Part shown: piece by piece, positions 18,197-43,666 of the stretch
Layout of the letters: each line of letters starts with the position of its first letter
Position numbering within the stretch: position 1 is the stretch's first letter
Assembly (NCBI RefSeq): GCF_030704535.1
Contig: NC_081811.1
Span: 4,126,001 to 4,190,000 of the forward strand
Reading direction: 5' to 3'
DNA: 64,000 bases
DNA from: Vitis vinifera
Taxonomy: Eukaryota > Streptophyta > Magnoliopsida > Vitales > Vitaceae
The notes under the pieces: generated by a model
Told to the model about the DNA's origin: nothing
What the model saw: only the letters and a program-made list of their open reading frames with translations
Database searches by the model: none
Position numbers and translations under genes: made by a program

Positions 18197-19513
18197 TGTC
18201 ACGCCCTAAGACCCACTTTTAAAAACGTGACAGTCATTTTACACCTCAAACCCGAAGGCGTAAAGTGTAACTTGACCCAAACAATTATCTTGTAACTGAA
18301 AATTACCAATTATTAAATACCTATTCAGAGTAGCGGAACAAAATTCTAAAATCTTCAAAACTTAACTTTAAAACTAAGCATCAATTATCCAAATAGATTG
18401 CAAACTCAAACAATTCAAGTGCTAACAAAATTTTCATAATCTCCAAAATCTCAACTTCAAACTATCATAAAAAAAAAAATTAAAAGTTCAATATCTAAAT
18501 AGCTTCCAAAAACCAAATAATCCAAATGAACATAAACCTAAAAGCTAACAAGGTTCAAAAATAGCATCCTAAGCAAAATCTTAATGTTGACCATTTCCCA
18601 ACCTAACCATCACTCCTCGCCCGAACTAAAGGTACCTGAAAAGTAATCAACAAATAGGAATGAACTCAAAGCCCAATAAGGAACATTAATACAGTCCATG
18701 GATCAAATATTTCAAGTTCACTTGCAAAATAGGAGATATTATAACTAATTATTTTCATAAACCTTTGAGTTAGTTTTGTCAATACATTCAAAACTTTTAA
18801 TTGTACACTTTTATTTCTGATTCAATCATTTTCATATCAAATTTAGTCAAAACATTCAAATCATTTATTTACTCTGGTCATCAAACATCAAATGATGCCC
18901 AATTAGGTGGGACTTTTCAAATGGACGGCTAGCCTCAAATTGTTCTTTTAAAGTGGACGGAACCAAACACTACTAGTACTAGTAACCTCTAACCAAACCC
19001 CTAGAGGCTGGAGTTCAACTCAATTACATTCCCTACCAAGAAATGTAAATGTCAACTATTATATCCCATTGACAAGGGTCAAACACTTATTTCAATTATT
19101 CAAATTTGCAAAACATAATATCTCCACATTTCTCTATTGTAAACAAAATATAAGGTTCTAACATACTTTTCATGTAAAACATATTTGATCCATGCATAAA
19201 ACGAATAATAACTCAAAATGTTTCCAAATGATGGATATAAAAAAAAAATTTCCAAAAAAAAACAACTGCATTAATTTCTCTTACCTTAAAAGCACTTAGA
19301 AACCTTGAAGAGTTTAGCTTCAATAATCTAACTCCCCCCTAACATAACAAAAAGATACTATAATCACAAAATTATTTTCCAACTTCTTAACCAATAACAA
19401 TTTAATTAATTAGTTTTCCTTTATTTATTTTATTATATTTTATTATTTATTAATTAATTTTTTTATTATTAATATTTTCCTAACTTATCCCTAAAAAACA
19501 ATTGGGCGTTACA
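18197..19513 (-). repeat. 3' LTR of the gypsy element
   Basis: 1317 bp. On the minus strand it starts TGTAACGCCC and ends GGGCGTGACA. It lacks a block of about 50 bases present in the other LTR near 25080-25135. A purine-rich tract (GATGAGAGAATGA) immediately precedes it on the minus strand and fits a polypurine tract. Confidence 0.88.
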
Positions 19514-24207: not shown

Positions 24208-25570
24208 TGTTACAACTCAATACCCACTCTAAGGGCATGACGATCACTTCACACCTCAAACCTGAAGGCTTAAAGTGTAACCTGACCCAAACGATTATCT
24301 TGTAACTAGAAGTTACCAATTACCAAATACCTGTTCAGAGTAGCGGAACAAAATTCTAAAATCTTCAAAATTTAACTTTAAAACTAAGCATTCATCAACC
24401 AAAATCCATTATCCAAATAAATTGCAAACTCAAACAATTCAAGTGCTAACAAAATTTTCATAATCTCCAAAATCTCAACTTCAAACTATCATAAAAAAAA
24501 TTAAAAGTTCAATATCTAAATAGCTTCCAAAAACCAAATAATCCAAATGAACATAAACTTATAAGCTAACAAGGTCCAAAAATAGCATCATAAGCAAAAT
24601 CCTAATGATTACCATTCCCCGACCTAAGAGTACTTGAAAAGTAATCAACAAATAGGAATGAGCTCAAAGCCCAATAAGGAACATTAATGCAGTCCATTGA
24701 TCAAATATTTCAAGTTCACTTGCAAAATAGGAGATATTATAACTAATTCTTTTCATAAATCTTTGAGTCGGTTTTGCCAATACATTCAAAACTTTTAACT
24801 GTACACTTTCATTTCTGATTCAAACATTTTCATATCAAATTTAGTCAAAACATTCAAATCATTTATTTACTCTGCTCATCAAACATCAAATAATGTCCAG
24901 TTATGTGGGACTTTTCAAATAGGTGGCAAGCCTCAAATTGTTCTTTTAAGGTGGATGGAACCAAACACTACTAGTATTAGTAACCTTTAACCAAACCCCT
25001 AGAGGTTGGGGTCCAAATCAATTACATTCCTCACCAAGAAATGTAAAGGTCAACTATTATATCCAATTGACAAGGGCTAAAAGTCAAAAGTCAACTATTA
25101 TATTTCGTTGACAAAGGTCAAACAAACCAGAGTCAAGCACTTATATTTCAATTATTCAAATTTTCAAAACATAATATCTCCACATTTCTCTATTGTAAAC
25201 AAAATATAAGGTTCTAAAACATAATTTTCATGCAAAACATATTTGATCCATGCATAAAACGAATAATAACTTAAAACGTTTCCAAATGATGTATATAAAA
25301 TTTGTTTCTAAAAAAAAACAACTGCATTAATTTCTCTTACCTTAAAAGCACTTAGAAGCCTTGAAGAGTTTAGCCCTAATAATCTAACTCCCTCCAAACA
25401 TAACAAAAAGATACTATCATCACAAAATTATTTTCCAACTTTTTAACCAATAATAGTTTAATTAATTAGTTTCCTTTTATTTATTTTATTATATTTTATT
25501 ATTAATTAATTATTATTATTTATTATTAATATTTTCCTAACTTATCCCTAAAAAAAATTTGGGTGTTATA
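24208..25570 (-). repeat. 5' LTR of the gypsy element
   Basis: 1363 bp. Its minus-strand start reads TATAACACCC where the partner has TGTAACGCCC, so the terminal TG itself has mutated. It ends TTGTAACA. Confidence 0.88.
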
Positions 25571-26159
25571 GTAGTAATGATAGACGACAAATAATAGTCT
25601 AGTGGTAGTAAGGTAGTAATAATAATTATCATTATTATATCGTTTCAAATTTTTTAGTAGGTAAGTAAAAAATAATAATAATGTGTAAACCTCTCTTAGG
25701 ACCAATGGTTTTTTTTTTTCTCACCATCCTGGGAGAGCTGAAAGCATTTTTGGAAGAGTGAGGGCCGATTTCCGCAGGAGCCGAGCATGCATGGACGTGG
25801 TGGTTGAGACGTGACTTGCCATGGTGGTAGCAGGGAGCAGGTGGAGGCTGCAAAAGAAAATGGATAGAGCAAGATTTTCGGGGAGCAACTGAAGAGAAAG
25901 AAAATGTGATGGGACTGGAGAAAATGAGGGAACGAAGCTGGGAGAAAAAAGAAACCAAAGAGCTAGCTGGATGGGAGGAAAACTGGGGGGAAAGAAAACT
26001 AGACAATGGGAAGAAAGGAGATGGGAAAGACAGAGTACCGGGGTGAGGATCAGAGGAGTAGCGCCAGTGCCATTTGTTTGGGATTTTGCCAACTGTGAGC
26101 TATTTAAAGAGAGACGCGATTCAAAAGCTTTTCACCAATCGAGCTATGTCCGTACATCA

Positions 26160-26500
26160 ACAGCGTTCGTTTCTTTCGTTGGGTGGATTCTCTTTGCTTC
26201 TGTCTTCTTTCTTTTCATTTGGCAAGAGTTTGATGAATCTGGTGTTGATGGTAGGCCTGTGGCAAAGTCATTGGCCCCAAAGTTAGATGTTTTCTCTAAA
26301 CATATGTCAGCTAATGTTGAGGTCCAAGTGTCAGAGGTAGAAATTAAAAATTTAGTGGTTGCATTTATAACTTTGAAAGGCCTTGAAGGTCTTCTTTTTA
26401 TCATTAGCAGTTCTCTTGGAGCGCATCTCTCGCTTCTTCATTAGGCAATTGGCATTCCTATCTTGTATGACTTTTACAACTATGATGTTGACATAGAAGG
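26160..26500 (+). pseudogene. captured HR-like lesion-inducing protein fragment
   Basis: One frame reads AFVSFVGWILFASVFFLFIW, then QEFDESGVDGRPVAKSLAPK, then FSKHMSANVEVQVSEVEIKN and LKGLEGLLFIISSSLGAHLS, then a stop, then AIGIPILYDFYNYDVD. This is the N-terminal two thirds of the plant HR-like lesion-inducing (HRLI) membrane protein family. The family's start Met codon is ACA here (26160-26162), and the Gln after LLH is TAG (26442-26444). No intron-like gap interrupts the similarity, which suggests capture from a spliced transcript. It lies wholly inside an LTR and is dead as a gene. The family name comes from recognition, not a search. Confidence 0.75.
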
Positions 26501-26519
26501 CTGAAGTACCACCTGCCCT

Positions 26520-27480
26520 TTTTTTATTATTATTATTATTCATGATTTGATATCAAAAATTAACTTCCATATTTGTAATTTTCAAGTTTAATTTTCCAAA
26601 ACTCTATTTTTTAAATTTAATTTTCATAACTTCCATTCCCAAATAATTTTCCAAAGTTTCAATTCCCAAATTTAAGTTTTTTTTTTAAATTCCAATTCTT
26701 AAGTTTAATTTTCAAAACTCTAATTTTCAAATAATTTTTTTAAAAAAATTTCAATTTCTTTCAAAATTAATTTCCAAAATTCCAATTTCCATATTTATTT
26801 ATTTAATCATTATTATTTTTGTTATTATTATTATTTTATTTATTTATCCAATTTTTTTTAAATTCCATTTTTAAATAATTCTTCAAAATTCCAATTTCCA
26901 AATTTAATTTCCAATTTTCGAAATTTCAGTTTTCACATTTGTTTATTATTATTATTATTATTATTTTATCTATTTATTTATTTTTAAAAATTCATCTCTA
27001 AATAATTCTTCAAAATTCCGATTTTCAAATTTAATTTCCAATTTCCAAAATTCCAGTTTTCACATTTGTTTATTATTATTATTATTTTTCGATTTCCGAA
27101 TTTAATTTCCAATTTCTAAAATTCCAATTTTCACATTTATTTATTTATTTATTTATTATTTTATTTTAAAAGAATTTCATCTTTAAATAATTTTCAAAAT
27201 TCTAATTGCTTTCAAAATTTAATTTTCAACATTCTAATTCTTAAATTTAATTTTCAAAATTCCAATTGGCAAATAATTTTCAAATTTCCAATTTCTTTCA
27301 AAATTTAATTTCCAATATTCCAATTTTTAAATTTATTTTTCAAAACCCCAATTTTCAAATAATTTTCAAGACTTCAATTTTCAAATAAATTTCAAAACTC
27401 CAGTTTTCTTTCAAATAGTTTTAATTCCACTCCATTATTCAAATATTTTTTTAATTCACAAATTTTCTTCGATTTTCAAA
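26520..27480 (+). repeat. AT-rich iterated block of the LTR
   Basis: Dozens of degenerate 25-35 base units built on AATTTCCAAAATTCCAATTT and CAAATTTAATTTTCAAAA, with TTATTATTATT tracts between. The same block, in the other orientation, lies at 34380-34780 in the 9.4-kb element, which shows that both are one LTR family. Confidence 0.8.
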
Positions 27481-28151
27481 TAATCTTTCGTTTTCCTTGA
27501 TTTTTTTTTTTAATAAGCATAAAGACAATTTTCATAATTCCAAAACAATGTAATTTGTGGGATTAATTCATGCAATATAAATTGGGCTTTGGTGGGAGCC
27601 CTACATATGATCTCTTCTGATTGTCAATTGCTATGTTTAATGAATATTGTTTGATCTTTGTCTTACTCTTTGATATGCATGTGATAATTTTATATTTGAA
27701 CTAACTTTCTTTCCATGATAGCATACTATTACTTGCTGCCAAGATACACTCTCACTCCCACTTTGCTTATTCTCATATATGATTCTTTTATTATTTGACC
27801 ATTTTGGTATCTATTGATTTCCTAGTTAATTGTCATGTTTGTTTCACCTTATTTTATAGAGACCCGTTTTTAGGGATTTAGAGGGGTGCTACAATCTTTT
27901 TACCGTACCTTCCCAATAAGTAATCTGACCCCCGAACCCGACTCGGTTTTTCACATGCCTATTTTTTCCAAATAAGGAATCACACAGGGTTTTCTTTCTT
28001 ATTTTGTTTTCCCTTTAAAAAAAAATTAAAATCAGTGTGGACTTCAAGTCTTTTTTCTAAAAATCATTCTTTTTTTCACAAAATAAATAAAAAAGGCGAG
28101 TTTGCTATCGAGTGGGAAAGCATCGAGCGAAAATACGGGGTCCACATAACG

Positions 28152-28690
28152 ATATATCATTTCAAATTTTTTTAAGAATAATAATAGTAGTAGTAGGAGT
28201 AGTATATGCTCAATAAAGAGTTAAAATTGTATAATTGAGTGATGATGTATAATATCACCTAGATAATTTTCATTTATTAAAAAATACAAATATAATTTGA
28301 TAGAGAGCATTTTTGTAAAAAAAAAAAAATGCTTTTATTTCATGTTTCTAAAAAAAATGACTATAAGTATGATTCTATAAATTAAACAAGTTTACAATTT
28401 GTACAATTTTTTTATTGGTCATATGTCATTTTAAAAATATTTTATTAATATAATTTGGTAAATTGAAAAATAAGATTAAAAAAAATTAATTAAATATAAT
28501 TTATCTTAATATCAACCGAAATTTAATATGTTCTTACTTATTTATTTAATACAACATAAAAAAAATGTTTGCATTTATTTATTTATTTATATTTTATATA
28601 CATTCTTCCTCGATTTCTGTTATAGTCATATTTTTCATGTTAAATTCATATTATTTTTGCTCATATACAATTTTTATAATTTTATATTTT
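28152..28690. other. AT-rich intergenic DNA
   Basis: The first 50 bases continue the TAG-rich array. The rest is AT-rich without a recognisable gene or element. Confidence 0.5.
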
Positions 28691-29160
28691 TGTCATATAT
28701 TTTTCATATCCCAATAGTACTTAAGTCACATCTTTTGTACCTTAATCACATTGTTCGGTATCAAAGTTACTTTCTTTGTATATTGGTCACAACGTTTATA
28801 TATTAATCACATTCTCTATACCTTGATACCTTAATCACGTTTTTTATACTTTACTCGGATCTTTTTGTACTTAAATTGTTTGAACCCTCATTACATTTTT
28901 TGTACATCGGTTATATTCTAAATACTTTTGTTATGTTTTTGTACCTTAACTATGTTTTTTCATACTTTAGTCACAATTTTTGTATCTTATAATCATAATC
29001 GTATTTGTATACACTGTCACATTGTCCCTACGATTTTATATTTTAATTTCATTTTGCATTTAAGGCATAATTCTCATATTTTAGTACTTTAATCACAATT
29101 TTCATATGTAAAACACTTTCTTTTTTTATTCTTACTCACGTATGTATACCTACTCATATT
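28690..29160 (+). repeat. degenerate minisatellite, about 20-24 bp unit
   Basis: More than fifteen diverged copies of a unit close to TTTTTGTACCTTAATCACA follow each other (for example at 28735, 28811, 28830 and 28932). Copies differ in length and bases, so the array is old. Any open frame here is a by-product. Confidence 0.7.
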
Positions 29161-30242
29161 TTTAGTATGTTTGCCCATTTATTTTATAAAATAATAAAAA
29201 TAAAACAATTTATTTTAGATTACATTTTAATCTTCCTAAGATAATTTCGTGGAGTTTATTATTTTATAATTTTAATTTCATTTTATTATATATTTTGGGT
29301 AGTTTTATTTAGTTATCACTCTTAAGTTTATTCTTTGATTTTTTTTTTTTTAATTATTGGGATATGTTTTTTTTTTTTTCCAATTTTGTTTAGATTTCAT
29401 GGAGAATCAAAATTTTAGGATAAAATTGGATGAAAATAAGGAAAGGTAATAATGCTTTGTATGAGTAATTTTGGTTTAGAGAAAAATAATAATAAGTTTA
29501 AAAAAATCATAAAATGGAAATAAAGAATAATACAATTATTATTTTTTTTGTAATTTCATTATCTCTCCACCCATCAATATTGAAAATTATCCATTACAAA
29601 TTTTTTTGATAAAATGTTTTTTTCTTTTTCTTTTTTTGTCAATATTTTTCACTAAGAAAACAAATTTGAAATCAAACTAGACTTGATACATATGATTTAT
29701 CAAATTTCAAATTTTAAAAATTACTTAAGAATAAAAAAATCGATGCAATTAGTATTAAAAAATCACATAACCCAAAACCGATCTAATTAACTTTAAAAAT
29801 TCATCAAAATTCTTTATGAATGGCTTTGTTGTTTCTTTATACACGATCATAATATTTTACACATTTTTTTCACTATAGAGATAAATTTCAAATTAAGCCC
29901 GACTTAATGCATTTGAATCATTAACAAATTTCAAAGATGTTTTGAAACTCAAATAATGATCCAATTAATATCATAAATTCATAAATAAAAATTAATCTTT
30001 CTTTTTTTGTAATTTTATATATATATATATTGCTGTACAAATAGATTCATAGAACATTTGTTAATGATTTTATGAAATGTTTTTAACCTTTATAATAATT
30101 GAAAATTCTTATTTTTCAAGTATTATAAAAACTAAGAGCACTTTCTAAAATTATTGTCTAACACGCTCTTAGAATTTGTTTATATATGATTTTAGAAAGT
30201 ATTTATAACCTTTTCAATATTTAAAAGATAAAAATTTTTAAG
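29161..30242. other. AT-rich intergenic DNA
   Basis: Very AT-rich sequence with no gene, RNA or clear element borders. Confidence 0.5.
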
Positions 30243-30586
30243 TGTTAAAATAACTAAAAATGCTTTAAAAAATTACTACTAAATGGATTGTTAATACATT
30301 AAATTCATTAACAAGTATATTAATTTTTAAAAATAACATAGAACTCAAAAAATAATAAAATAATTACTATTGCTTCATGGATTAAAAGACTGATTCTATT
30401 GTTTTTCATTAATATGTTAAAATAACTAAAAATGCTTTAAAAAATTACTACTAAATGGATTGTTAATACATTAAATTCATTAACAAGTATATTAATTTTT
30501 AAAAATAACATAGAACTCAAAAAATAATAAAATAATTACTATTGCTTCATGGATTAAAAGACTGATTCTATTGTTTTTCATTAATA
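30243..30586. repeat. exact 172-bp tandem duplication
   Basis: 30243-30414 and 30415-30586 appear identical base for base, including TGCTTTAAAAAATTACTACT and GCTTCATGGATTAAAAGACT. In such fast-drifting DNA this means a very recent duplication, or an assembly repeat. Confidence 0.9.
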
Positions 30587-31465
30587 CAAATAAATTTCAA
30601 ATAAAATAAAATGAGACTCGATATATCAAATTTATTTATAAGTTTAATAAATTTTAAAACTAATTTTAAAATTAAAATAGATTTCATCACTATAAGAAAA
30701 CAATAAACAAAAATGGAAATGTCATGGATTGTGATCTTATGTTTCTCTTTTGTACATAATTATACTTCCCAAATTTTGTTATTAGGTAAATAAATTACAA
30801 ATCAAGTGAGATTATCGATACTTTTAAATTTAGTAATGAATCGAATAATTTTTTTTTTTAAACTTTCGAACTCAAAAAATTGACATTATTAATAATCGAA
30901 GTCTCATAACTGAGCAATTAATGTGTTTATATAAATCATAAAATAAGTCACAACTTTATTATTTTCCTTTGCACACAATTATATTTTCTAAATTTTCTCA
31001 TTTGATAAATAAATTTTAAATCAAGCAAAACTCCACACTTTTAACTTTTATCATGAATGGAATAGTTTTTAAAAAATATTCAGGAATTCAAAATTTTGGG
31101 TAGATATAAAAATTCGAAAATAAATATTAAATATAATGTTTAGCAAATTTTCAAATATTTATTTTTGATAAGAAAATAATGAAAGTTTTTAGCCAATTTC
31201 CAAAATCAATATAGAAGGCTTTGATTGTATATCTTTTTAATAGAATAATTAATAACTAATAATTTTAAAATTAATTGATTAAAAAGGGAGGAAAAGATTA
31301 TAAAATTAATCTATTTCTTTAATAAATTTGAAGAGTAAAATGACATAAACACCCTTCAATATTTCAATTATTTATATATGTGTAGGGTTTGTTTACAAAA
31401 ATTGGGGTGATTCCTTTTAATCAAATATCCCATAATTTTACCGTAGATTAACACCTCCGAAAAGG
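30587..31465. other. AT-rich intergenic DNA
   Basis: AT-rich sequence without gene-like content up to the target site of the foldback element. Confidence 0.5.
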
Positions 31466-31649
31466 TCAAGCTGTAGGACTTTTCTTAATAGTACGGTAAT
31501 TTAAAAAAGTTATGCTTAAATTATTGTAGTAGAAGAAGTTATTACAAATATATGGTAGTTTTTGCCACATAAGAGAGAAGAGATAGGAGAGAGGAGAGAG
31601 GGTGAACGGATAAATTTTTTTAAAACCAAAATCATCTTTTCAAACAAAG

Positions 31650-32465
31650 GGAACTCGTCTCTTGAAGAGACGAGTTCCATGAAAAAACAAATATATATAT
31701 TTTTTAAAAAAAATCATCTTTCAAACAAAGGGAACTCGTCTCTTCAAGAGACGAGTTCCATGAAAAAAAAAATATATATATATATTTTTAAAAATTCCCC
31801 ATTTACTCAAGAGAACTCGTCTCTTCAAGAGACGAGTTCCATGAAAAAAAAAATATTTTTTATTAAAAAAAAAAAAAACAGTTGCTGAATGGAACTCGTC
31901 TCTTGAAGAGACGAGTTCCCATGGGAAAAAAAATATTTTTTATTTAAAAAAAAAATTCCCAAATTTAAAAATTAAAAAAAAAAAAGAAAAAAAACAAAAG
32001 CAATTCCTCCATGGTTTGTTTGAGATAACAAAGTACATAGGTCCTCCTTGAAAAATTTCATGTCCTAAAAATCTAATTTTTGTTTGAAATAATTTTATTT
32101 TTAAGCAGAAAAAGCCGCTTCAATGACATTGAAAATATATTTTTTTAATTTGAGATTTTTTTTTTTTTCACGGGAACTCGTCTCTACGAATTGTCTTGAA
32201 GATTTTTAAAAAAAAAACTAATTTTAGGAACTCGTCTCTTCAAGAGACGAGTTCCCTTGAGGAAATTTTTTTTTTTCTTTTATTTGGGAATTTTTTTTAA
32301 AAAAAATATTTTTTTTCCATGGGAACTCGTCTCTTGAAGAGACGAGTTCCCTTGAGGAATTGATTTTTTTTTTTTTTTTTTTTAATTTGGGATTTTTTTA
32401 AATAAAAAATATATTTAAAAAAAAAAATTTTCCATAAAGAGACGAGTTCCCTTAGGAATTGTTTT

Positions 32466-32508
<43 letters not shown>

Positions 32509-33510
32509 GATTTTTTTAAAAATAAAAAATATATTAAAAAAAATAAAATTTTCCCATGGGAACTCGTCTCTTGAAGAGACGAGTTCCCTTTAGCAAATTT
32601 CTTTTTTTTTTTTTTTAAATTTGGGATTATTTTTTAAATAAAAAATATATTTAAAAAAAAATATTTTTTTCCCCATGGGAACTCATCCCTTTAGGAATTT
32701 TTTTTTTTTAATATATATATATATATATTTTAAAAAAATATTTTTTTACATGGGAACTCGTCTCTTGAAGAGACGAGTTCCCTTGAGGAATTTTTTTTTT
32801 TTTTTTAATTTGGGATTTTTTTTAAATAAAAATTATATTTAAAAAAAAAAATTCCATGGGAACTCGTCTCTTCAAGAGGGAACTGAAGAGACGAGTTCCC
32901 TTTAGGAATTTTTTTAAAAATATATTTTTTTTTTCCATGGTAACTCGTCTCTTGAAGAGACGAGTTCCCTTAAGGAAAATTTTTTTTTTTAGACTTCTGG
33001 CAGGCTGCTATGTAGACACATGCTTGCTGCTTTTGGAACAAAAACTGCAAAGCTTGTAAAATATTATTGATGGAAGACAAAATGCTGATGATTACTTAGA
33101 TATATATATTTTTTTAAAAAAAATTTATTTATTTTTACATGGGAACTCGTCTCTTCAAGAGACGAGTTCCCTTGAGGAATTTTTTTTTTTTTTTCTTAAT
33201 TTGGGATTTTTTTTAAAATAAAAATTATATATATATTTTTTTTAAAAAAAAATTTCCATGGGAACTCGTCTCTTGAAGAGACGAGTTCCCTTTAGCAATT
33301 TTTTTTTTTATTTGGGAATTTTTTTAAAAAAATATTTTTTTTTTACATGGAACTCGTCTTTTGAAGAGACGAGTTTCCTTGAGGAATTTTTTTTTTTTAA
33401 AAAAAAAAATTTTCCATGGGAACACTTTAGCAATTTTTTTTTTATTTGGGAATTTTTAAAAAAAAATATTTTTTTTTACATGGAACTCGTCTTTTGAAGA
33501 GACGAGTTCC
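31650..33510. repeat. array of 29-bp palindromes, left part
   Basis: The unit is a perfect inverted repeat with 14-bp arms, GGAACTCGTCTCTT and AAGAGACGAGTTCC, around a single central G or C. Full or nearly full copies start near 31650, 31731, 31812, 31891, 32227, 32322, 32559, 32753, 32859 (with an insertion), 32939, 33142, 33261, 33350 and 33482. Half copies lie near 32172, 32437 and 32680. Spacers of 50-100 bases are almost pure A and T runs. Each copy would form a tight hairpin. Confidence 0.93.
32988..33110. other. unique insert within the palindrome array
   Basis: About 120 bases of normal complexity (GACTTCTGGCAGGCTGCTAT, CTTGCTGCTTTTGGAACAAA) interrupt the A/T spacers. Its origin is not recognised. 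It could be a captured host fragment, as in Pack-MULEs. Confidence 0.5.
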
Positions 33511-33660
33511 TTTGAGGAATTGTTTTTTTTTTTTTTTTTAATTTGGGAATTTTTTGAAAATATATATATATATATATGTTTTTTAAAAAAATATTTTTTT
33601 TTTCCATGGGAAGAGGAAATTTTTTTTTTTTTTAATTTGGGAATTTTTTTAAAAAGATAT

Positions 33661-35077
33661 TGTGGACCCCGCATTTCGATTGCTCGATGCGTTTCCCACT
33701 CGATGGCGAGCTCGAATTTTAATTTGAAAAATTGATTTATATTGATTATGAAAATGACTTGGAGTGGCCACTTATTTTTGTTTTATTTTTAAAAGGGTAA
33801 ACAAAATAAGAAAGAAAAACCCTAAGTGTGACTCCTTATTTTGGAAAAGGCGGTTTGCGAAAAACCGGATCGGGTTCGGGGGTCAGGTTACTTATCGGGA
33901 AGGTACGGTACAGACCGTAGCACCCCTTTAAGTCCCTAAAGTCGGGTCTCTACTAATAAAATGAAGCAATCATGACAATTGATGAGGGAATCAATGAATA
34001 CTCAAAGCGATCATGCACATGTGAGAATCTAAACATGCATACGGAAAATGACCCGAGCGGGTGTGGATGCGTACCTGGGCAGTGATCCATAAAGCACTAT
34101 CAAGAAGTGAGATTAGTGCACAACTAAAGAATGGTCACATGCATATCATAGAGCAGAATAAATCATGTATGGCAACCGAATCAACCAAACAATCCATCAA
34201 TCATAAAATCTCATATGTTGGGCCCCCACCAAAGCCCAATCTATCTTGCACGAATTAATCTCACAAATTCCATTATTCTGAAATTATGAAAATTGCATTC
34301 GTGCTTATGTAAAACCAAGAAAAACATAAGGTTTGAGAACCGGAGTAGAATTAAAATTGTTCGAGTAAAGACTGGATTTTTTTAAATTTGTTCGAAAATT
34401 GGAGTCTCGAAAATTATTTGGAAATTGAAGTTTTGGGAATTGAATTTAAGAATAGGAATTTTGGAAGTTAAGTTTGAAAGAAATTGAAAAACTTAAAATT
34501 ATTTGAGAAGTAAAAATTGTGAAGCTTAAATTTAAGAATTTAAGTTTTGAAAATTAAATTTAAAAGAAATTGAGATTTTAAAAATTATTTGAGAGTTGGA
34601 ATTTTGAAAATTAAACTTAAGAATTAATTTTAAAAAAAAACTTAAATTTGGGAATTGAAACCTTAGAAAATTACTTGGGAATGAAAGTTATAAAGATTAA
34701 ATTTAGGAAATAAAACTTTAGAAAATTAACAATATGAAAGTTAATTGATATAAAAAAGAATGACAATGATAATAAAAAATGAATAAATAAAAACGTGGTG
34801 GTTGAATGGTTTTACCAAGACAATGTACCCTTTGACCAAAAAAATTGATGGATTAAGAGCATGGCTTTTTGGATTGCATGGGAATAAAGGTGGGCACGTG
34901 TCTTAAGCCAACTTTTGTGTCTTTTCAGCATTCATCCATTTAAAAGGGCCACAAGAGTACATGACTTCTGCTCTAGTTCAGGTTATATAGGCTTTGCAGC
35001 TAGCATACAAGCACTTTGGTGACTTGTGTTCCGAGCTCCCTAGTAGACACCACAATCAGTGCTTGCAGATTATTTTA

Positions 35078-35111
<34 letters not shown>

Positions 35112-35830
35112 TTAGTGTTCACCACTGAAAATATCAATAGTAGGTACATAAAAGTCTTTCCAAAACCTGTCTGAGCATGAAGTATGCAATCACGAATAGA
35201 AAAAAGAATTGAGCAGTTGGAAGATAAGCCATTAGACTCACAGAAATGAAGAAGGAACCGAGCCATTTACAAGAGTAAAAATCAAGGACAGTAGAGAGAA
35301 CAAAAACAGAACATGTATATAAGAGAGAGAGAAAAAAATAAAAATAAAAGAAACATCATCTCCAAAAATCAAAGCAGTTATGGATCTTTGCCCAAAATAT
35401 TCCAGAATAGAGAAATGCATAAATAAACTTCAAAAGTCAAGAGGAACCCATGAACAGCGGGAAACAAGGGAGAACCTTTCATAACGGAAAGCGTAAAGCG
35501 GATTCAAAAAAAAATACCTGGACTCAGAAAATGGTGGTAAATGGACCCTTCACCACCTACCTCAGCCTGCTCTCTGTTTCTCTCTTTCCTCCAGATTTTT
35601 TTTCTTTAAAAAAAAACCGACTTCTCCCTCCCGCTCACTCAAGCTCTCCTCCAGCTATCCTCTCTAAAAAAAACCAGCTCCAGCTATCTTCCTCTCCAGC
35701 CAGCTTTCTATTTTCTTCCCCTGCGTCCCCTTCTCCTGTCACTTTTTTTTTTTTTTAAAACCCCTCTCGCTCCAGCTCCCTTCCTGCCCTTTCTCCCTCT
35801 CCCGATCCGGAAAGCTAGCACCTGCTCTCC
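33661..35830 (-). repeat. 3' LTR of the 9.4-kb element, carrying a helicase fragment
   Basis: On the minus strand the order is GA-rich block (35830-35560), DEAD-box helicase fragment (35215-34815), AT-rich iterated block (34780-34380), and the conserved U5 part ending CGAAATGCGGGGTCCACA at 33661. This is the same order as in the solo LTR at 25684-28146. The upstream (U3) border is uncertain. Confidence 0.65.
34815..35215 (-). pseudogene. captured DEAD-box RNA helicase fragment (RH58-like)
   Basis: Minus-strand frames read RDCILHAQTGFGKTFMYLLL then IFSVVN, which contains helicase motif I (A-x-T-G-x-G-K-T). After an expanded (ATA)n tract comes LQALIVVSTRELGTQVTKV with motif Ia (normally PTRELG). 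Then, after a frameshift, come MLAAKPI, ELEQKSC and MLKRHKSWLK. The order and wording match the N-terminal half of chloroplast RH58-type helicases. Stops and frameshifts make it non-functional. No ordinary intron separates motif I from Ia; the trinucleotide tract replaces a few residues. The identification is by recognition and could be another close DEAD-box member. Confidence 0.75.
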
Positions 35831-35837
35831 ATCCTGA

Positions 35838-36390
35838 CTATGCTCCAATGTAAATCAGTGCATCCAAGTCAACAACTGCTGAAAAGAACCACGCCTAGTG
35901 CATATCAATAAATCAATCGATCTCCACCCCTGACGCCAAAATGGAAATATCTCAACACAATCCATATGAATCAGGATCCCAAGGCTCTATGAATGTGAAT
36001 GAGGTGGCTATGCCCTAGTATAAATTGCCTGAAGTGACTATGCTCCAATGAAAATCAAAGTCCATCACCAATGAGAAGGTCACGCCTCAAAGTAAATCGT
36101 CATCTCAAAAATCAACTATCAATGAGTGGAACGCGTCCCAATGCAGAGCATCGAGTAGAGTGACTGTATCTCCAATAAAAGCGCTCTCTGAAATGGCTAT
36201 GCCCCAGTGTAGGGTCATCCAACAACTCCTAATCCATCATAACCCAAGTGAAGAAGCAAACTGACTATGCCTCAGTGCAAGGCACCATCCCGAAAGAAAA
36301 CGTCATCGATGAGCGGGGTATGCCCCAGTGTAGATAATGTCGCCTCTAAAAATCCATCACTGATAAGAGGGGTATGACCCAGTGTAAATC
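35838..36390 (-). repeat. irregular repeats around CTATGCCCCAGTGTA
   Basis: About nine diverged copies of TGACTATGCCCCAGTGTAAA on the plus strand (near 35838, 36010, 36043, 36195, 36261, 36317 and 36370) separated by 30-100 bases of less similar sequence. They sit just inside the presumed 3' LTR. The function is unknown. Confidence 0.65.
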
Positions 36391-38811
36391 ATCATCTCAA
36401 CTCCCCATCCCTCATGCTCTGAGAAATAATCTCCGACCAAGCTCGAGTATTGCCCACGTGGGAGCTGTCAAACACGATATAAAGTAATGGCCTCAGGGTG
36501 GTCTTCAGACACGGGACGTAACGTAGGCCAAGGTAATAGGGTGAAAGAAACGAAAGGAAACTAGGCTCAAAAAACCCAATGATATAATCCCCATACCCCT
36601 CGTGCATAATATGCAATGCGTAGAAAACGTCATGAGTCCCGGACCTAGAGGTCCCCACACGAAAAGTGATGATAAATGAATGGACACATCAAATAAGCAA
36701 GAATAAAGTGTGGATGCTGAACCCATGTCAAACATCAGACAGAATGAGAAAAAAAATGAGATAAGATGAAGTGGAGTGAAACGGAGGGATAAAATAAAGA
36801 TGAAAGAAGGCGAAGAGATAGAAAAGTGAGTGATGGTCACCCTGCATCAAAGCATGGAAAGTAGTCACATCCGAAATAGATGGAATGATGGATAGAACAG
36901 GGACCCAGAGATACTAAAGAAAGGTCACTCGCCTCTCTTACAAAAATTGAATGGATGACTCATACTCTCACCCAAAATATACATCAAGATGAATCTTAGA
37001 AAGAAGCTCTCATACGAACTCTCTCTAACACATGAACTCAATGAAGCAACCCGGCACGTCCATACACATGCCCAATGAAGAACGATAAAATGAACAATAC
37101 GCTATATTTTTTTTTTCTTTTTCTTTGTTTTTTTTTTGTTTTTTTTGTTTTTTGTTTTTGTTTTTGTTTTTGTTTTTTTTTTTTTTTTTTTGCGCATACT
37201 CTGATCAATAGTGAATGATATCCCATGAAATACATAGCTAAATGAATAAACTCTCCCCATGTACTGATGTAACATGAATCCTCACCAACAAGACAACCTC
37301 TCAAAATAACATCTCTGAACCACTGCCTATAGGGTGAATGATAGGAAAGAATGTGACAATCCTCCATGTAGTGACGTGTGAAAAACCACCACTCAAGGTG
37401 AAACACGGATAATGTCGAGTAAGCAATAATGAAAGAAAAGACAAAGAACGAATATCACAAGTAGTGATATGTGATATCAGAAAAATAGTGATGAAATGAT
37501 ATCCAAGTGGAAAATATCACGATGAAAAGTGAAGGATGAGGCTCGAATATGTATGTTAGGTCCGGAACTCATGACGTATCCAATCATAGCATGCGAGCAC
37601 TACAGGATCCCCAACCCGGTGTAATAAGTAAATGAGGTGATGAAAGAAAAAGCTATGTGCTCGTGTGAGGCTCAAAGGGCTAGCAACGGGTAACTCTATA
37701 TGTGAGGATGATAAAGTAAATGGGCTCATGAAATGATGGCCACCCATCCTTTGGCCAAAACCTCGAACATCGTGCTTTCGAGATCTCACATGGCCAATAC
37801 TAAAGACTGGCATCCATCCAACAAAGTCATGTCAACTCCTCCGAAATCACGTGAAAGCTCCCACTGAGGCTCTGTGATAATCATCAATGTCCTCCGACAA
37901 TCACCTCGCCCTATCGTCATATGCCACTCACCATCATCTCATAAAAAGAACCATCTCTAATCACCCTGGCTCCCTAAAGTCATGTGTAATGACTCAAATC
38001 CGGATGCTCCATGACGACTCCTCTGCCTCAACAACATCGTCAAGCAATCAAGCCACTCTCTCATCATGATCCATCTATCATCGTGTAGAGCTCACCTCAG
38101 GTCAAACCATCTCGGACACTACCAGGTCAGATCAAGGAAATGATGGAAAGAATAGGCAATGGTACTATAATATACGAAGGCGAATAAGAATGGTAAAGGT
38201 CGTATAACGGTACCAAGGGGTGGTGTCATGTCAGGCTCAAAATGGGTAGGTCGACAAGTCCATAGAGTCGGGATATGGATATGGATATGGTACTGCTCCG
38301 AACAGAAGGTAAAATGGGTCACAGTCTCGAACTCCCTGGGTCGATCTCCTAATCCTAAGTCAAAAGGCTCAATATCCTCTATGATAGGTCAGGCCAGAGT
38401 GATCAATGATGTCAAAGTGAAAATATGTCTCATATCGAAAGCATAACACACATCAACACAAAATATGTAAAACGTACTCATGAGAAAAGAGAATAACACA
38501 TACTCAAAATAAAAGATCATGTCACTGAATGAACCAAATGAGTACATCATGTGTGAAGCGATAAAGAACTACAAACGACTAGAAAAACAATGACTCTGAA
38601 CCAAACTGGACTCAACAAAGCGACTCTGATGAGCTAAACACTGGACCCGATAGAACAGGAACGACTCTGATGATGACCAAAATCAAAATGGAAGGTGCTC
38701 TGAGCTAAATCGCTGCAAAATGATGTACCCACGTCAACTGAAACAAAGTCCCCAACCCGAGGTGTCCCAAAATACCATGCGACCATCAATACCATCAACA
38801 TCCAAATCAAT
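36391..38811. other. non-coding interior of the 9.4-kb element
   Basis: About 2.4 kb downstream of gag on the minus strand. Composition is even and many short frames occur, but none shows protease, reverse transcriptase, RNase H or integrase motifs. A T-rich run (about 37108-37190) stands out. This is where pol would be in an autonomous element. Confidence 0.6.
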
Positions 38812-40291
38812 CTACTGAAGACCAGGAGGAGGAGGAACTGCATGTGTAGAATGTGCAGGCAGGGGATTGGTGGTCACACTTGGCCTAGCCAAGTCAACCA
38901 CCCCTGAATCGATCAAATCCTGTATCGCATGATGGAGTGCTGAACAACGCTCAGTATCGTGCCCCGGAATCTGATGATACAAGCAGTGCTCATGTGAACG
39001 GAAATGAGGAGGAATAGGATGAGGCAAAGGCCTCGGCGCCAAAGGAACAATCACTTCAGCGTCTCTGAGCTTCTCAAAAGCTCTAGTCAAAGTCATGCCC
39101 AAGGGAGTGAACTGTCTCGGGGGGCCTCTGTGCATATGGTCTAGGCGGTGGGTGAGTAGCGGCTCTCGGATGTGGTGGTCGCGGCTGCATGCTAGTCTGA
39201 GCAATGTAAGGCTCCTGAGCATAATCCAGCTGATACTGATACTGTGGAAGAGAGAAAAGAGCTCTGACTGTAGGAGACCTATAAGCTGAGTGATGCGCGG
39301 GCCTCTGGTGCCGATAGCTAATAGCACCAACCTCTCCAGATCTGGTAGATGATCCAATCGGCCTCTTCCCCTTACTGTCAGGGGAAGTAGCAGTATCTGT
39401 CCATAATCCTCGAGCCATAGCCTCCTCTACACTGAAAGCAGCATGAACCAAACTCCTAAGATCCTGAAACGGGATGCCCACAAGACGTCTCGCGAATCTC
39501 GGCTGTAGGTTCCGAAGAACCATATCAATCTGATCCTGCTCCTTAGGCCGATCTATCATACCAGCCACCTTTGCCCTCCAACGAGTGACAAAGGAAGAAA
39601 TAGACTCATCTGACCTCTGCCTAGTGGCCTCCAACTCTCGTCTGGATACATCAATGTCAGCGCTGAAAGCGAACTGAGTCAGGAACTCACGAGCCACGTC
39701 CTCCCAGGTGCGAAGTCTCGAAGGCTCAACTGAAGCAAACCACCTCTGAGCTGCCCCACTAAGTGACATCGAGAAGAGGGCCACCAACTGCGCATCATCT
39801 ATACCATGTGCTCTCATGACCGTGCTGTATAGCCTCAAGTGGATCTTGGGACAACCAATCCCACTGTAACGCTCAATGTCTGGCATGTGAAACTTGAAGG
39901 GCAAGCTAGCCGCCGGTATGCCATCCCTGTCATCCCAAGTCAAACCTCCGTCCTGCAATCTGATCTGTCTCATCATGGACTCAAGCCTCTCAACCTTGGC
40001 CTCCTGCTCGGCCAATCGAGTATCCTCAATAGTAGGAACCATGGGAGGCGGCACTGTGACAGTAGGTGGTGGAATGGTCTCATAATGATCTACCAGATGG
40101 AATGGAGTACCAAGTGAAACCCCAGGTGGACGAGTCTGTGCTGTCTGAGATGCATGAGGAATCGTCTCGTCAGTGACCACGCCAGCCGGATGAGGATCCT
40201 GACGAGAACTCTCTAACTGATCCAAGCGTCTACTGACTCCGGCCATGAACTCCTGAATGGAAGCAAGTGTGGAAGCTAGCTCGTCTGACAT
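38812..40291 (-). pseudogene. Tat-type Gag with one frameshift
   Basis: The likely start is ATG at 40291 (MSDELASTLASIQEFMAGVS); the same frame stays open upstream to 40492. It has a coiled-coil-like stretch (EQEAKVERLESMMRQIRL), then the gag core with YSGIGCPKIHLRLYSTVMRA, RWFASVEPSRLRTWEDVARE and RWRAKVAGMIDRPKEQDQID. A one-base change in a run of six C/G near 39120 shifts the frame. The next frame continues with TPLGMTLTRAFEKLRDAEVI and a zinc motif C-x2-H-x4-H-x4-C (CLYHQIPGHDTERC), ending at 38812. Gag would form the particle. The frame is otherwise nearly intact, in line with a young element. Confidence 0.82.
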
Positions 40292-40492
40292 CTCAACTGA
40301 ACTATCTGAACTCGGATATGAATCTGCTCTGATCAATCGTCCTCGAACTCTCCTCCAAGAATGTGACTCCAGACTCAACCGACTCCTAAACTGACTCCCT
40401 ACAATGCAAACAAAACGGATGAAGGACACGAAATAAAACTCTAAAAGACGACAATACAACATGCAAGCACATGGTCCTGAGGTGGCAATCAT

Positions 40493-42307
40493 AAATCTGG
40501 ATGTTTAACGAAAACTCTAGAGTCACAAAGGTATCCACTGCGAAATGGCTACAAATGTGACCAAAGAATCTTCATCAATAATCCGAGATAAAAGAGGTGT
40601 GAAAAACACACTATCACGAGATCGGTACTCCACCAATAAACATATATCTTTAACTCAAATTTCGACTCGAACTTCATAAGAGAAAAAATGGTAAGGTGAT
40701 CAAGACAACTCTCTGAAAAAAGTGTGGATGTGAAAAATGCGCCTTTCACCTTTCCGTAATGAAAATATGAGCATCGAGTCGAAAATTGAACCAAGGATCA
40801 AACAAATGATGAGATACTGAGCCCGTTATAAGCATACAGTGTAAAAAGATGATCAATGAACATATCCCAAAGCATCATGTGAGTGATAACCAAGTGAAGG
40901 GGTGTGTCAAGCCAAGAAATGAGAACGAAAACCCTAGGGAGAAAACATGCTAAACTCATCAAGTGAAAAACACAATACAAGGCGACAAGACGAAAGGTGA
41001 TCCAACCGATACTCAGACTCATACTGATCTCCGAGCACTCTTAACTGGAGACTAAAAAGAGGGAGTGTCAAATCCAAACTATGACTACAGAGGCTCTGAA
41101 GGCTCTTAGATGCACCCACGTGTGAGGAAGGAGTCCTAATCGAAGGATCTACGGCTCAACCTACGAGGTAAAGGTGGCTCTAAATGAATATGGGTGGATT
41201 TTAAAGATCCCTAGCAGAAGCGATCATACTCTCCGACGGTACGCAACCCTCTGCACGCCTCCAAAGAGACGGGACGCTTCCATGCAAGGTGGTCATCACC
41301 TCCACACATGCACTACCTCGCATCCCAAGAGGTTCCAATGGTGAAAACTCTCACAACTCTCAACACTCAGTAATCGACTAAAGTGCACAGTGAGCGGTGT
41401 GGGTGCATCCGAAAACCCTATGAAACTAAAAGGAAACACACTGACCACACAAGTATCCTGAAATCTAGCTCTGAGCTATACAAGTCTTCAAAGTTCGGAC
41501 TCCAATCAGCATCAATATGTCGACCACCTCCAGAATGCTCCCAAACATAGATATAGCCCATCGCTAGACCCTACTCCTAATCACTAGCTCGGTCAGAGAG
41601 CAAGCACACAGAAGGTCTCACACTTGCAATAGTGAGAACCGAGATGAAAGGAATGACCGAAACCAAGAGATTTGGAGGTAGAAGGATAGAAGTGCGACCC
41701 ACATGGACAAGCGACATGCAATCAAGCAGAAGAAGGGCAATCATGCGACATGCAGTCAGGCAGAGTACATGATATATCACTCATGTCCACACACAAACTA
41801 TGATAGTCAAAATGAATAGTGATACAAACATCATGCTCAAAGATGATCAAGAGAATATATAATCCAAAGAATCGACATGTCAAATCAAACAATGTATAAC
41901 AATGAATCCATACATGCCAGACGATCCAAACAATCATGACAAATATCAAAATCACTATGCTAAGCAAAATAAGATAGACAATCAATACAGTCAACATGTC
42001 GATATCTTAAATGAATATGGCAATGAAGCACAGAGAAAATAGCTATCTCAAAATCCTCTATCAATACGAATCAATCATCATAATCAGCAGGTCAAATATC
42101 TCAAACAAATATATCAATGAAGCATGAAGAAACTTGCTATATCAGAATCCCCAATCAAAATTATCAACCAATATGATCAACATGTCAATGTCCCAAAGTG
42201 AAAACTCGGGAACTCTCAATGTGCAATCAAGAAATAGGTATCCACTGATCGTCCAATCGAATGCCACGTTTGCTTCATTCTAAGTTCAAGTTTGACCCTC
42301 TAAACAA
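40493..42307. other. 5' leader of the 9.4-kb element
   Basis: About 1.8 kb between the primer site and gag. No convincing protein-coding frame was found. Ogre-type elements have an extra ORF here; none is visible in this copy. Confidence 0.5.
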
Positions 42308-42325
42308 TCCCCAGTGGAGTCGCCA
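42308..42325 (-). other. primer binding site, tRNA-Arg type
   Basis: Three bases inside the right-hand terminal repeat the minus strand reads TGGCGACTCCACTGGGGA. This is close to the tRNA-Arg primer site used by Tat/Ogre gypsy elements. It fixes the element's orientation. Confidence 0.7.
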
Positions 42326-42328
42326 TTT

Positions 42329-43098
42329 TGTGGACCCCGCATTTCGAGACTCCAATTTTCAAACAAATTTAAAAAAATCCAGTCTTTACTCGAACAATTT
42401 TAATTCTACTCCGGTTCTCAAACCTTATGTTTTTCTTGGTTTTACATAAGCACGAATGCAATTTTCATAATTTCAGAATAATGGAATTTGTGAGATTAAT
42501 TCGTGCAAGATAGATTGGGCTTTGGTGGGGGCCCTACATATGGGATTTCATGATTGATTGGCTGATTGATTGATTTAATTGTCATGTATGATCGATTTTA
42601 TTCTGCTCTATGACATGCTCGAAATTATTCCTTAATTGTGCGCTAACCTCACTTCTTGATAGCGCTTTATGGATCACTGCCCAGGTACGCATCCACACCC
42701 GCTCGGGTCATTTTCTGTACGCATGTTTAGATTCTCACATGTGCATGATCATTCTGAGTATTCATTGATTCCCTCATCAATTGCCATGATTGCTTCATTT
42801 TATTAGTAGAGACCCGACTTTAGGGACTTAAAGGGGTGCTACGGTCTGTACCGTACCTTCCCGATAAGTAACCTGACCCCCGAACCCGATCCGGTTTTTC
42901 GCAAACCGCATTTTCCAAAATAAGGAGTCACACTTAGGGTTTTTCTTTCTTATTTTGTTTACCCTTTTAAAAATAAAACAAAAATAAGTGGCGACTCCAA
43001 GTCATTTTCATAATCAATATAAATCAATTTTTCAAATTAAAATTCGAGCTCGCCATCGAGTGGGAAACGCATCGAGCAATCGAAATGCGGGGTCCACA
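42329..43098 (+). repeat. inverted partial LTR at the 5' side
   Basis: 770 bp starting TGTGGACCCCGCATTTCG and ending CGAAATGCGGGGTCCACA. From about 42347 outward it is the U5 half of the LTR in the opposite orientation to the left LTR. The junction lies at ATTTCGAGACTCC (42342-42354): the normal U5 end would read ATTTCGATTGC, while the LTR interior (34399-34404 read inverted) carries TTTTCGAGACTCC. The shared TTTCGA is 6 bases of microhomology. U3 and R are missing here. Confidence 0.82.
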
Positions 43099-43204
43099 GA
43101 TATATATATTTTTTAAATATATATATATATTTCCACGAGTTCCTTCGAGGAATTGCCTTTTTTTTTTTTTAATAATTTGGGAATTTCTTAAACAAAACAT
43201 ATAT

Positions 43205-43495
43205 ATATTTTCATGGAACTCGTCTCTTTTTTAAAAAAAATAATTTGAGAATGTTTTTTTTAAAAAAAATATTTTTTTTTCAAGATACGAGTTCCCTTGA
43301 GCTTGTTTTTTGTTTTTGTTTTTTTTTATTTTATATAATTTGGGAATTTAAAAAAAAAAAAATTTCCATGGGAGTTCCCTTGAGCAACTGTTTTTTTTTT
43401 TCATGGAACTCGTCTCTTGAAGAGACGAGTTCCCTTGAGTAAATGGGGAATTTTTTTAAAAAAATATATATATTTTTTTTCATAGAACTCGTCTC
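43205..43495. repeat. array of 29-bp palindromes, right part
   Basis: Continuation of the foldback array after the retrotransposon: half copies near 43215, 43284 and 43484 and one full copy at about 43404-43433. Confidence 0.9.
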
Positions 43496-43666
43496 TTCAT
43501 TGTTTGAAAGATGATTTTGGTTTTAAAAAAATTTATCAGTTCACCCTCTCTCCTCTCTCCTATGTGGTAAAAACTATCATATATTTGTAATAACTTCTTC
43601 TACTACTATAATTTAAGCATAATTTTTTTAAATTACCATACTATTAAGAAAAGTCCTCAAGCTGTA

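Follow-up and report, generated by a model that had tools for sequence, protein, structure and literature searches.

A grapevine LTR retrotransposon family whose terminal repeat seems to act as a recurrent trap for host exons

Plant retrotransposons with long terminal repeats (LTRs) are already known to capture genes. Host gene fragments occur in Bs1 of maize and in other plant LTR elements (PMC13317346; PMC2774510), and for maize 425 elements with at least 189 captures over 81 families were described (PMC2774510). Here we report on a family of LTR retrotransposons of Vitis vinifera, two LTRs of which lie in a stretch of 64,000 nucleotides (contig NC_081811.1, positions 4,126,001 to 4,190,000; C7:4126001-4190000 in the genome searched), hereafter called the window. 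The LTR of this family contains a zone that holds pieces of different host messenger RNAs (mRNAs), and the terminal repeat seems to act as a recurrent exon trap. We consider it probable (roughly 75%) that this capture zone is filled from spliced host mRNA, with template switching during reverse transcription as the best mechanism. The maize captures are spread over many families and, in the sections of that report at hand, are not described inside the LTR, whereas here they occupy one zone in the LTR of one family (PMC2774510).

Several other systems come close, as described in the available portions of the respective sources. LTR-mediated retroposition by template switching (Tan et al., 2016, via PMC5408686) likewise involves cellular mRNA and a partial copy, and the microsimilarity at its joins may be a further likeness, but a fixed place inside the LTR and inheritance in both LTRs are not described there (PMC5408686). 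Strand switching also brought foreign sequence into BARE-2, where it entered the LTR, and into the long Veju elements. These were single events with retrotransposon or unknown sequence, whereas many host mRNAs are involved here (PMC13317346). SVA elements undergo 5′ transduction, by which the transcribed unit likewise gains host sequence on its 5′ side (PMC13317346); in the present family, the host piece has U3 upstream of it. The retroduplicated NLR genes of pepper are spliced genes that were likewise multiplied by LTR elements, many of them non-autonomous, but those genes lie between direct LTRs and show a gene-family bias, whereas here fragments of unrelated genes lie inside the LTRs (PMC5664825). 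In a limited literature search that covered few subscription journals, we met with no description of a family whose LTR holds host mRNA fragments at a constant position. What is new here is such a fixed zone in a single family's LTR, and not LTR gene capture as such.

Host fragments in the LTRs of one family

The first copy in the window is a solo LTR on the plus strand (25684-28146), which starts with TG at 25684 and ends with CA at 28146. It is flanked on the left by the target-site repeat TAATG (25679..25683, read from the sequence) and on the right by TAACG (28147-28151), equal in four of five letters. From 5′ to 3′ it consists of a GA-rich U3 part (25684..26113), a captured complementary DNA (cDNA) piece of a gene for an HR-like lesion-inducing protein (26110..26498), an AT-rich iterated block (26520..27460) and a conserved 3′ core (27460..28146) with the terminus GGGGTCCACA. 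A TATA-like word, CTATTTAA, was located in U3 by its pattern (26100-26107) and may have a promoter role. The second copy, from 33661 to ~35850, belongs to the same family and is the 3′ LTR of a 9.4-kb gag-containing element on the minus strand. From its 3′ end it comprises, all on the minus strand, the core (33661..34420), the AT-rich block (34421..34793), a short family segment adjoining this block (34793..34899; common to the family members L028, L027, L019 and L018), a captured cDNA fragment of a DEAD-box helicase (34902..35264), within which a TAA-type microsatellite occurs, and a GA-rich, U3-like part (35265..35850) that is assigned by position and composition and has an approximate 5′ end (~35830-35850).

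A preliminary description of this DNA had proposed that both copies share a 3′ part and an AT-rich block, and that each carries a different host fragment between the latter and a GA-rich block. BLASTN confirmed this for the 3′ core (27113-28146 with 34669-33661; 71% over 1,076 columns, E 1e-132) and for the AT-rich block (26520-26922 with 34779-34391; 74% over 419 columns, E 3e-64). The local score of the AT-rich block was 302, whereas 100 dinucleotide shuffles never exceeded 85, and chance low-complexity similarity is ruled out for block and core. It may underlie the likeness of the GA-rich blocks, which gave no alignment and whose score of 28 was equalled in 22 of 200 shuffles. We therefore discarded the GA-rich block as a common anchor of the window copies, and homology of the two blocks is not demonstrable from their letters. 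Judged by its matches elsewhere in the genome, the block of the solo LTR is LTR 5′ sequence: 36 of the 43 rows of its own-genome search were confined to its first 271 bases. Within subfamilies, the GA-rich U3 is common to the members.

The family was collected from the assembly searched (495.6 Mb, 21 contigs). The solo LTR gave 4,731 loose first-look candidate places, of which 40 were scored, and a search with its U3 and insert gave 43 candidates, again with 40 scored. The resulting set of 41 LTRs, 39 fetched loci (L numbers) and the two window copies, was chosen by similarity to the solo LTR and not by gene content. The core was matched in all 39 fetched loci, only partially in L012, L028 and L042. 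An all-against-all comparison showed that the core and most of the AT-rich block are common to nearly all 41 LTRs, and that the 1-3 kb upstream of the AT-rich block are mostly held in common with zero to five other members (e.g., L010/L022, L029/L044/L046, L030/L045, L031/L042, L014/L035 and solo/L028). Inserts thus differ between subfamilies, and among the scored candidates the HR-like insert was found in one other locus only, which agrees with the earlier claim of different inserts at the same place. A primer binding site (PBS) directly follows the core end GGGGTCCACA in 9 of 36 members tested. The order of the LTR is therefore U3 (GA-rich), insert, AT-rich block, core and PBS, the reading direction that had been proposed. 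Members that lack a PBS are counted here as putative solo or 3′ LTRs. In 22 of the 41, the start of the LTR (TGTAGACCCC and variants) could be located or estimated; for the other 19, the 1.5 kb upstream of the AT-rich block were scanned, and some of this sequence and its matches may fall outside the LTR.

The host pieces lie in sense orientation. Pfam was run on the sense frames of the 39 members (117 sequences) and of the two window copies, with the outcome given per group of members. Both fragment identities recognized earlier in the window were recovered in LTR sense, HR_lesion (PF05514, E 2.5e-37) and DEAD (PF00270, E 1.5e-8). Altogether, twelve host families occurred in sense frames: PK, SNRNP200_wHTH, MTHFR (a marginal match, 9.2e-4), HR_lesion, RRM, F-box (F-box_5), DHHC, NTP_transferase, Mpv17, Helicase_C, AAA and DEAD. 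RRM, DHHC, Mpv17 and NTP_transferase were assigned to single LTRs by eye from open reading frames (ORFs), in agreement with the groups, and the AAA domain match lies in L035, a solo LTR with a perfect 5-bp repeat. The antisense frames of all 41 LTRs (123 sequences) contained no host family and only one copia gag. If the twelve are independent events, twelve sense against zero antisense corresponds to ~0.0005 in a two-sided sign test. The copia gag and the hAT transposase domains (two sense matches; L038 by reading) were not counted as host, since they are transposon sequence.

The unshared stretches could also be mainly fast-diverging U3 and nested transposons, with host captures as a minority and no fixed-site mechanism. 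Several upstream segments are indeed confined to a subfamily or resemble transposable elements, such as those with the hAT (sense, L038) and copia (one antisense frame) domains. However, twelve host families were matched, parents were located for six of seven captures searched, and the set had been picked by similarity to the solo LTR. This explanation therefore seems quite unlikely.

Spliced parental genes and the place of the insert

Four of the six parents that were located demonstrate a spliced origin of the captured piece. The solo LTR holds four fused exons of the HR-like parent (C5:7496475-7499174), from which three introns, one of ~2.1 kb, were removed at exact GT-AG sites; the insert includes parental sequence 5′ of the start codon. 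Two introns of the DEAD-box parent (C5:4760246-4762172) were exactly removed (GT-AG), as were three of the Mpv17-like parent (C12:2276336-2279247) and one of ~475 bp in a parent that, from reading its ORF, we take to be eIF2B-like (C15:11322261-11322925). Altogether, parental blocks meet at 13 joins; at nine of them an intron was removed exactly at its GT-AG sites, and no retained intron was found in the aligned parts of the six parents. The earlier observation that neither window capture contains an ordinary intron is thereby supported, and its reading as repeated transduction fits. The seventh parent, of the DHHC capture, was not found among the 40 scored of 803 candidates. Both window captures have broken frames (a stop at 26442-26444 in the HR-like piece, a shifted frame in the DEAD-box piece), and therefore we claim no protein function.

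The place of the insert could be read from a pair of family members. L043, a 1.75-kb solo LTR with AACAT repeats, and L034 (C18:10313400-10319500, minus strand) can be aligned from the start of the LTR over 566 bp, as far as GTGTTTGGATTCCG, and then diverge, L043 into the AT-rich block and L034 into a 1.4-kb insert. As judged from this alignment, L043 is the empty site and L034 its filled counterpart. Boundaries are shared within subfamilies. Of the 40 rows of the L029 search, 12 begin to match the 3′ block at query position 792 and five at 777-778. In the L030 search, 10 of 47 rows (nine loci) begin at 559-561 and seven at 572. Six of the eight rows that enter the 3′ block in the L023 search begin at 484, and the host match reaches 496, an overlap of 13 bases. 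The boundary words differ among subfamilies. At a single join, the 5′ join of the HR-like insert, the word AGAGGC is present both in U3 (seen in L027, which is without this insert) and in the parent upstream of its start codon. L011 and L036 contain the AT-rich block twice, with 1.1-1.2 kb of other sequence between; some later insertions therefore fall inside this block.

The variable stretch lies within LTRs that are bounded by target-site repeats. Perfect 5-bp repeats surround the solo LTRs L013, L021, L035, L043, L039 and L018 (the last with TCCATA as LTR end), and repeats with one mismatch (four of five) surround L034 and the solo LTR of the window; none were found for the remaining members. 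L044 and L046 form a same-strand pair of LTRs on C9; they are 86% identical, and CATAT stands at each outer end of the pair. L044 starts with GGTAGACCC, and both LTRs hold the same DHHC-bearing stretch. The L023 stretch recurs 13 kb downstream with 92% identity; a target-site repeat was not shown for this element, and the downstream LTR end is absent from the 701 bases fetched. At a substitution rate of 1.3e-8 (taken from PMC5664825), the ~86% of L044/L046 and the 89% of part of the L023 pair correspond to an age of ~4-6 million years, a rough value as gaps depress identity.

Processed pseudogenes are reportedly unusually common in V. vinifera (PMC7935947), and the LTRs could have inserted beside, or recombined with, existing ones at the DNA level. 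Such events would have to account for variable stretches inside LTRs bounded by target-site repeats, for host domains that are all in sense, for recurrent boundaries and for the L043/L034 pair, which diverges exactly at the AT-rich block. We already disfavour this explanation and regard it as highly improbable.

The 9.4-kb element and neighbouring repeats

The 9.4-kb element extends from 33661 to 43098 and has GATAT on each side (33656..33660 and 43099..43103). Its gag ORF (39083..40504, minus strand) matches PF03732 (Retrotrans_gag, E 3.7e-12) and weakly PF19259 (Ty3_capsid, 0.016). Judged by this gypsy-type gag, the family is probably a Ty3/gypsy-type LTR retrotransposon. The gag ORF, with 473 amino acids, is the longest listed in the window element, which contains no pol-length ORF. 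The PBS TGGCGACTCCACTGGGG (42309..42325, an exact match) lies on the minus strand, from 42325 to 42309, as does gag, and therefore the left LTR is the 3′ LTR. Two direct LTRs were not found in this element, and in this respect the preliminary description needs correction. Its right terminus (42329..43098, plus strand in an element on minus) is an inverted LTR core, which matches the left LTR core on the opposite strand with 94% over 776 bp and has 18-bp LTR-end words on both sides. At the right-end join, 18 bp of LTR end meet the reversed core at the word CGAAA, beside the PBS. Since GATAT flanks the whole unit, integration in the inverted-end form is suggested, and the element apparently integrated with two U5-type ends. 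The join at CGAAA suggests a further strand switch in this family during reverse transcription.

We also considered the 9.4-kb element as a DNA transposon with terminal inverted repeats, and the core end as the start of the LTR. Both readings were overturned by the PBS after the core end in the members mentioned above. Features of capture by Pack-MULE, CACTA or Helitron elements were not found here; LTR ends, a PBS and gag are present, and introns are absent. The element is surrounded by an array of hairpin repeats (GGAACTCGTCTCTTGAAGAGACGAGTTCC; 31469-33660 and 43104-43663) with inverted ends of ~300 bp (31469-31772 and 43392-43663), which is perhaps another transposon of ~2.75 kb. Just left of the solo LTR lies a pair of direct repeats of 1.3-1.4 kb (18208-19511 and 24219-25568; 86% identical), and a perfect tandem duplication of 172 bp occurs at 30243-30586.

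Proposed strand switching and its meaning for grapevine

In the reading that we favour, the LTR runs from U3 (TGTAGACCCC..., GA-rich) through the capture zone, the AT-rich iterated block and the 3′ core (GGGGTCCACA) to the PBS. The growing minus strand would quit the element RNA within the AT-rich block or a little upstream of it, move onto a host mRNA inside the particle and copy a stretch of this spliced mRNA. It would then return to U3, in at least one case at a short matching sequence, and the new unit of U3, host piece, AT-rich block and core would be copied into both LTRs and inherited from then on. Both the switching and when it takes place are inferred, as is a promoter role for U3. 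Two minus-strand switches would give what is seen: a partial, spliced and sense-only mRNA with U3 upstream and AT-rich block and core downstream, present in both LTRs of L044/L046.

Several observations weigh against template switching. Firstly, 4 of the 13 joins are unclean and resemble jumps within the mRNA. The RRM parent (C5:9308910-9311058) shows two gaps, one of 102 bp that is coding-like and one of 1.5 kb, neither of which is a clean splice; the 102-bp gap can alternatively be read as CAG/GT...ACAG/G. A parent that is presumably RAD23-like, from reading its ORF (C14:588893-589416), shows one gap off the splice sites, and the third join of the DEAD-box capture is an internal jump and not a splice. 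Since their gaps are not clean splices, the RRM and RAD23-like captures were not used as evidence for intron loss. Secondly, the L034 insert is a mosaic of pieces from at least three genomic sources, which runs on from the RAD23-like piece into at least two further sources. For L037, the initial part of the query finds its match on C9 and not on C12, and LTRs can therefore hold mosaics. Thirdly, the boundary rows are related copies and not independent events, and other boundary starts occur as well (572 for L030, 777-778 for L029). To these come the GA-rich blocks of the window copies, which do not align, and the 19 members without an identified LTR start. Lastly, the DEAD-box fragment terminates exactly where an exon does, as a fusion made by spliced read-through could as well.

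Such read-through is the main rival: a host gene would be transcribed into a downstream LTR of the family, the chimeric RNA spliced, and the fused exons retrotransposed as a 5′ transduction. This explains the sense orientation, the intron loss and host sequence upstream of R-U5, besides the end of the DEAD-box fragment. However, the HR-like and RRM fragments terminate inside exons, and L034 combines several sources. In addition, U3 is retained upstream of the host piece, so that a second switch is required anyway. Read-through therefore seems rather unlikely, and template switching remains our preferred mechanism.

A more specific version of template switching is possible, and we put it forward tentatively, at less than even odds. 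The capture zone may be the U3/R junction, i.e., the transcription start site. Minus-strand strong-stop DNA would then move to a host mRNA, and not to the 3′ R of its own RNA, and return to U3. In both LTRs, R would henceforth begin with the host piece, and further captures would stack there. A TATA-like word starts ~26 bp ahead of the point where L034 and L043 part; for the breakpoint of the solo LTR and L027 the distance is 10-16 bp. Among the 22 LTRs whose start is known or could be estimated, a pattern scan found such words in 12; their positions are scattered, and a TATA box at every capture point was therefore rejected. The start-site model thus draws on two groups of breakpoints, L034/L043 and solo/L028/L027.

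With a defined zone, many inserts and an empty and filled pair, sporadic LTR gene capture becomes a recurrent process, and within one genome it becomes measurable how often strands switch, which templates are chosen and how the joins are made. Captured exons lie where they could be transcribed in sense from a putative LTR promoter and carried to new loci. A study that searched hard-masked genomes suggested L1 as the reason why processed pseudogenes are unusually numerous in V. vinifera (PMC7935947). LTR capture offers a testable alternative, for which the overlap is to be counted and not assumed, given the hard masking in that study. If captures indeed occur at the U3/R junction, the LTR would be a serial, heritable exon trap driven by the obligatory first strand transfer, and this might explain part of the high processed-pseudogene load of grapevine.

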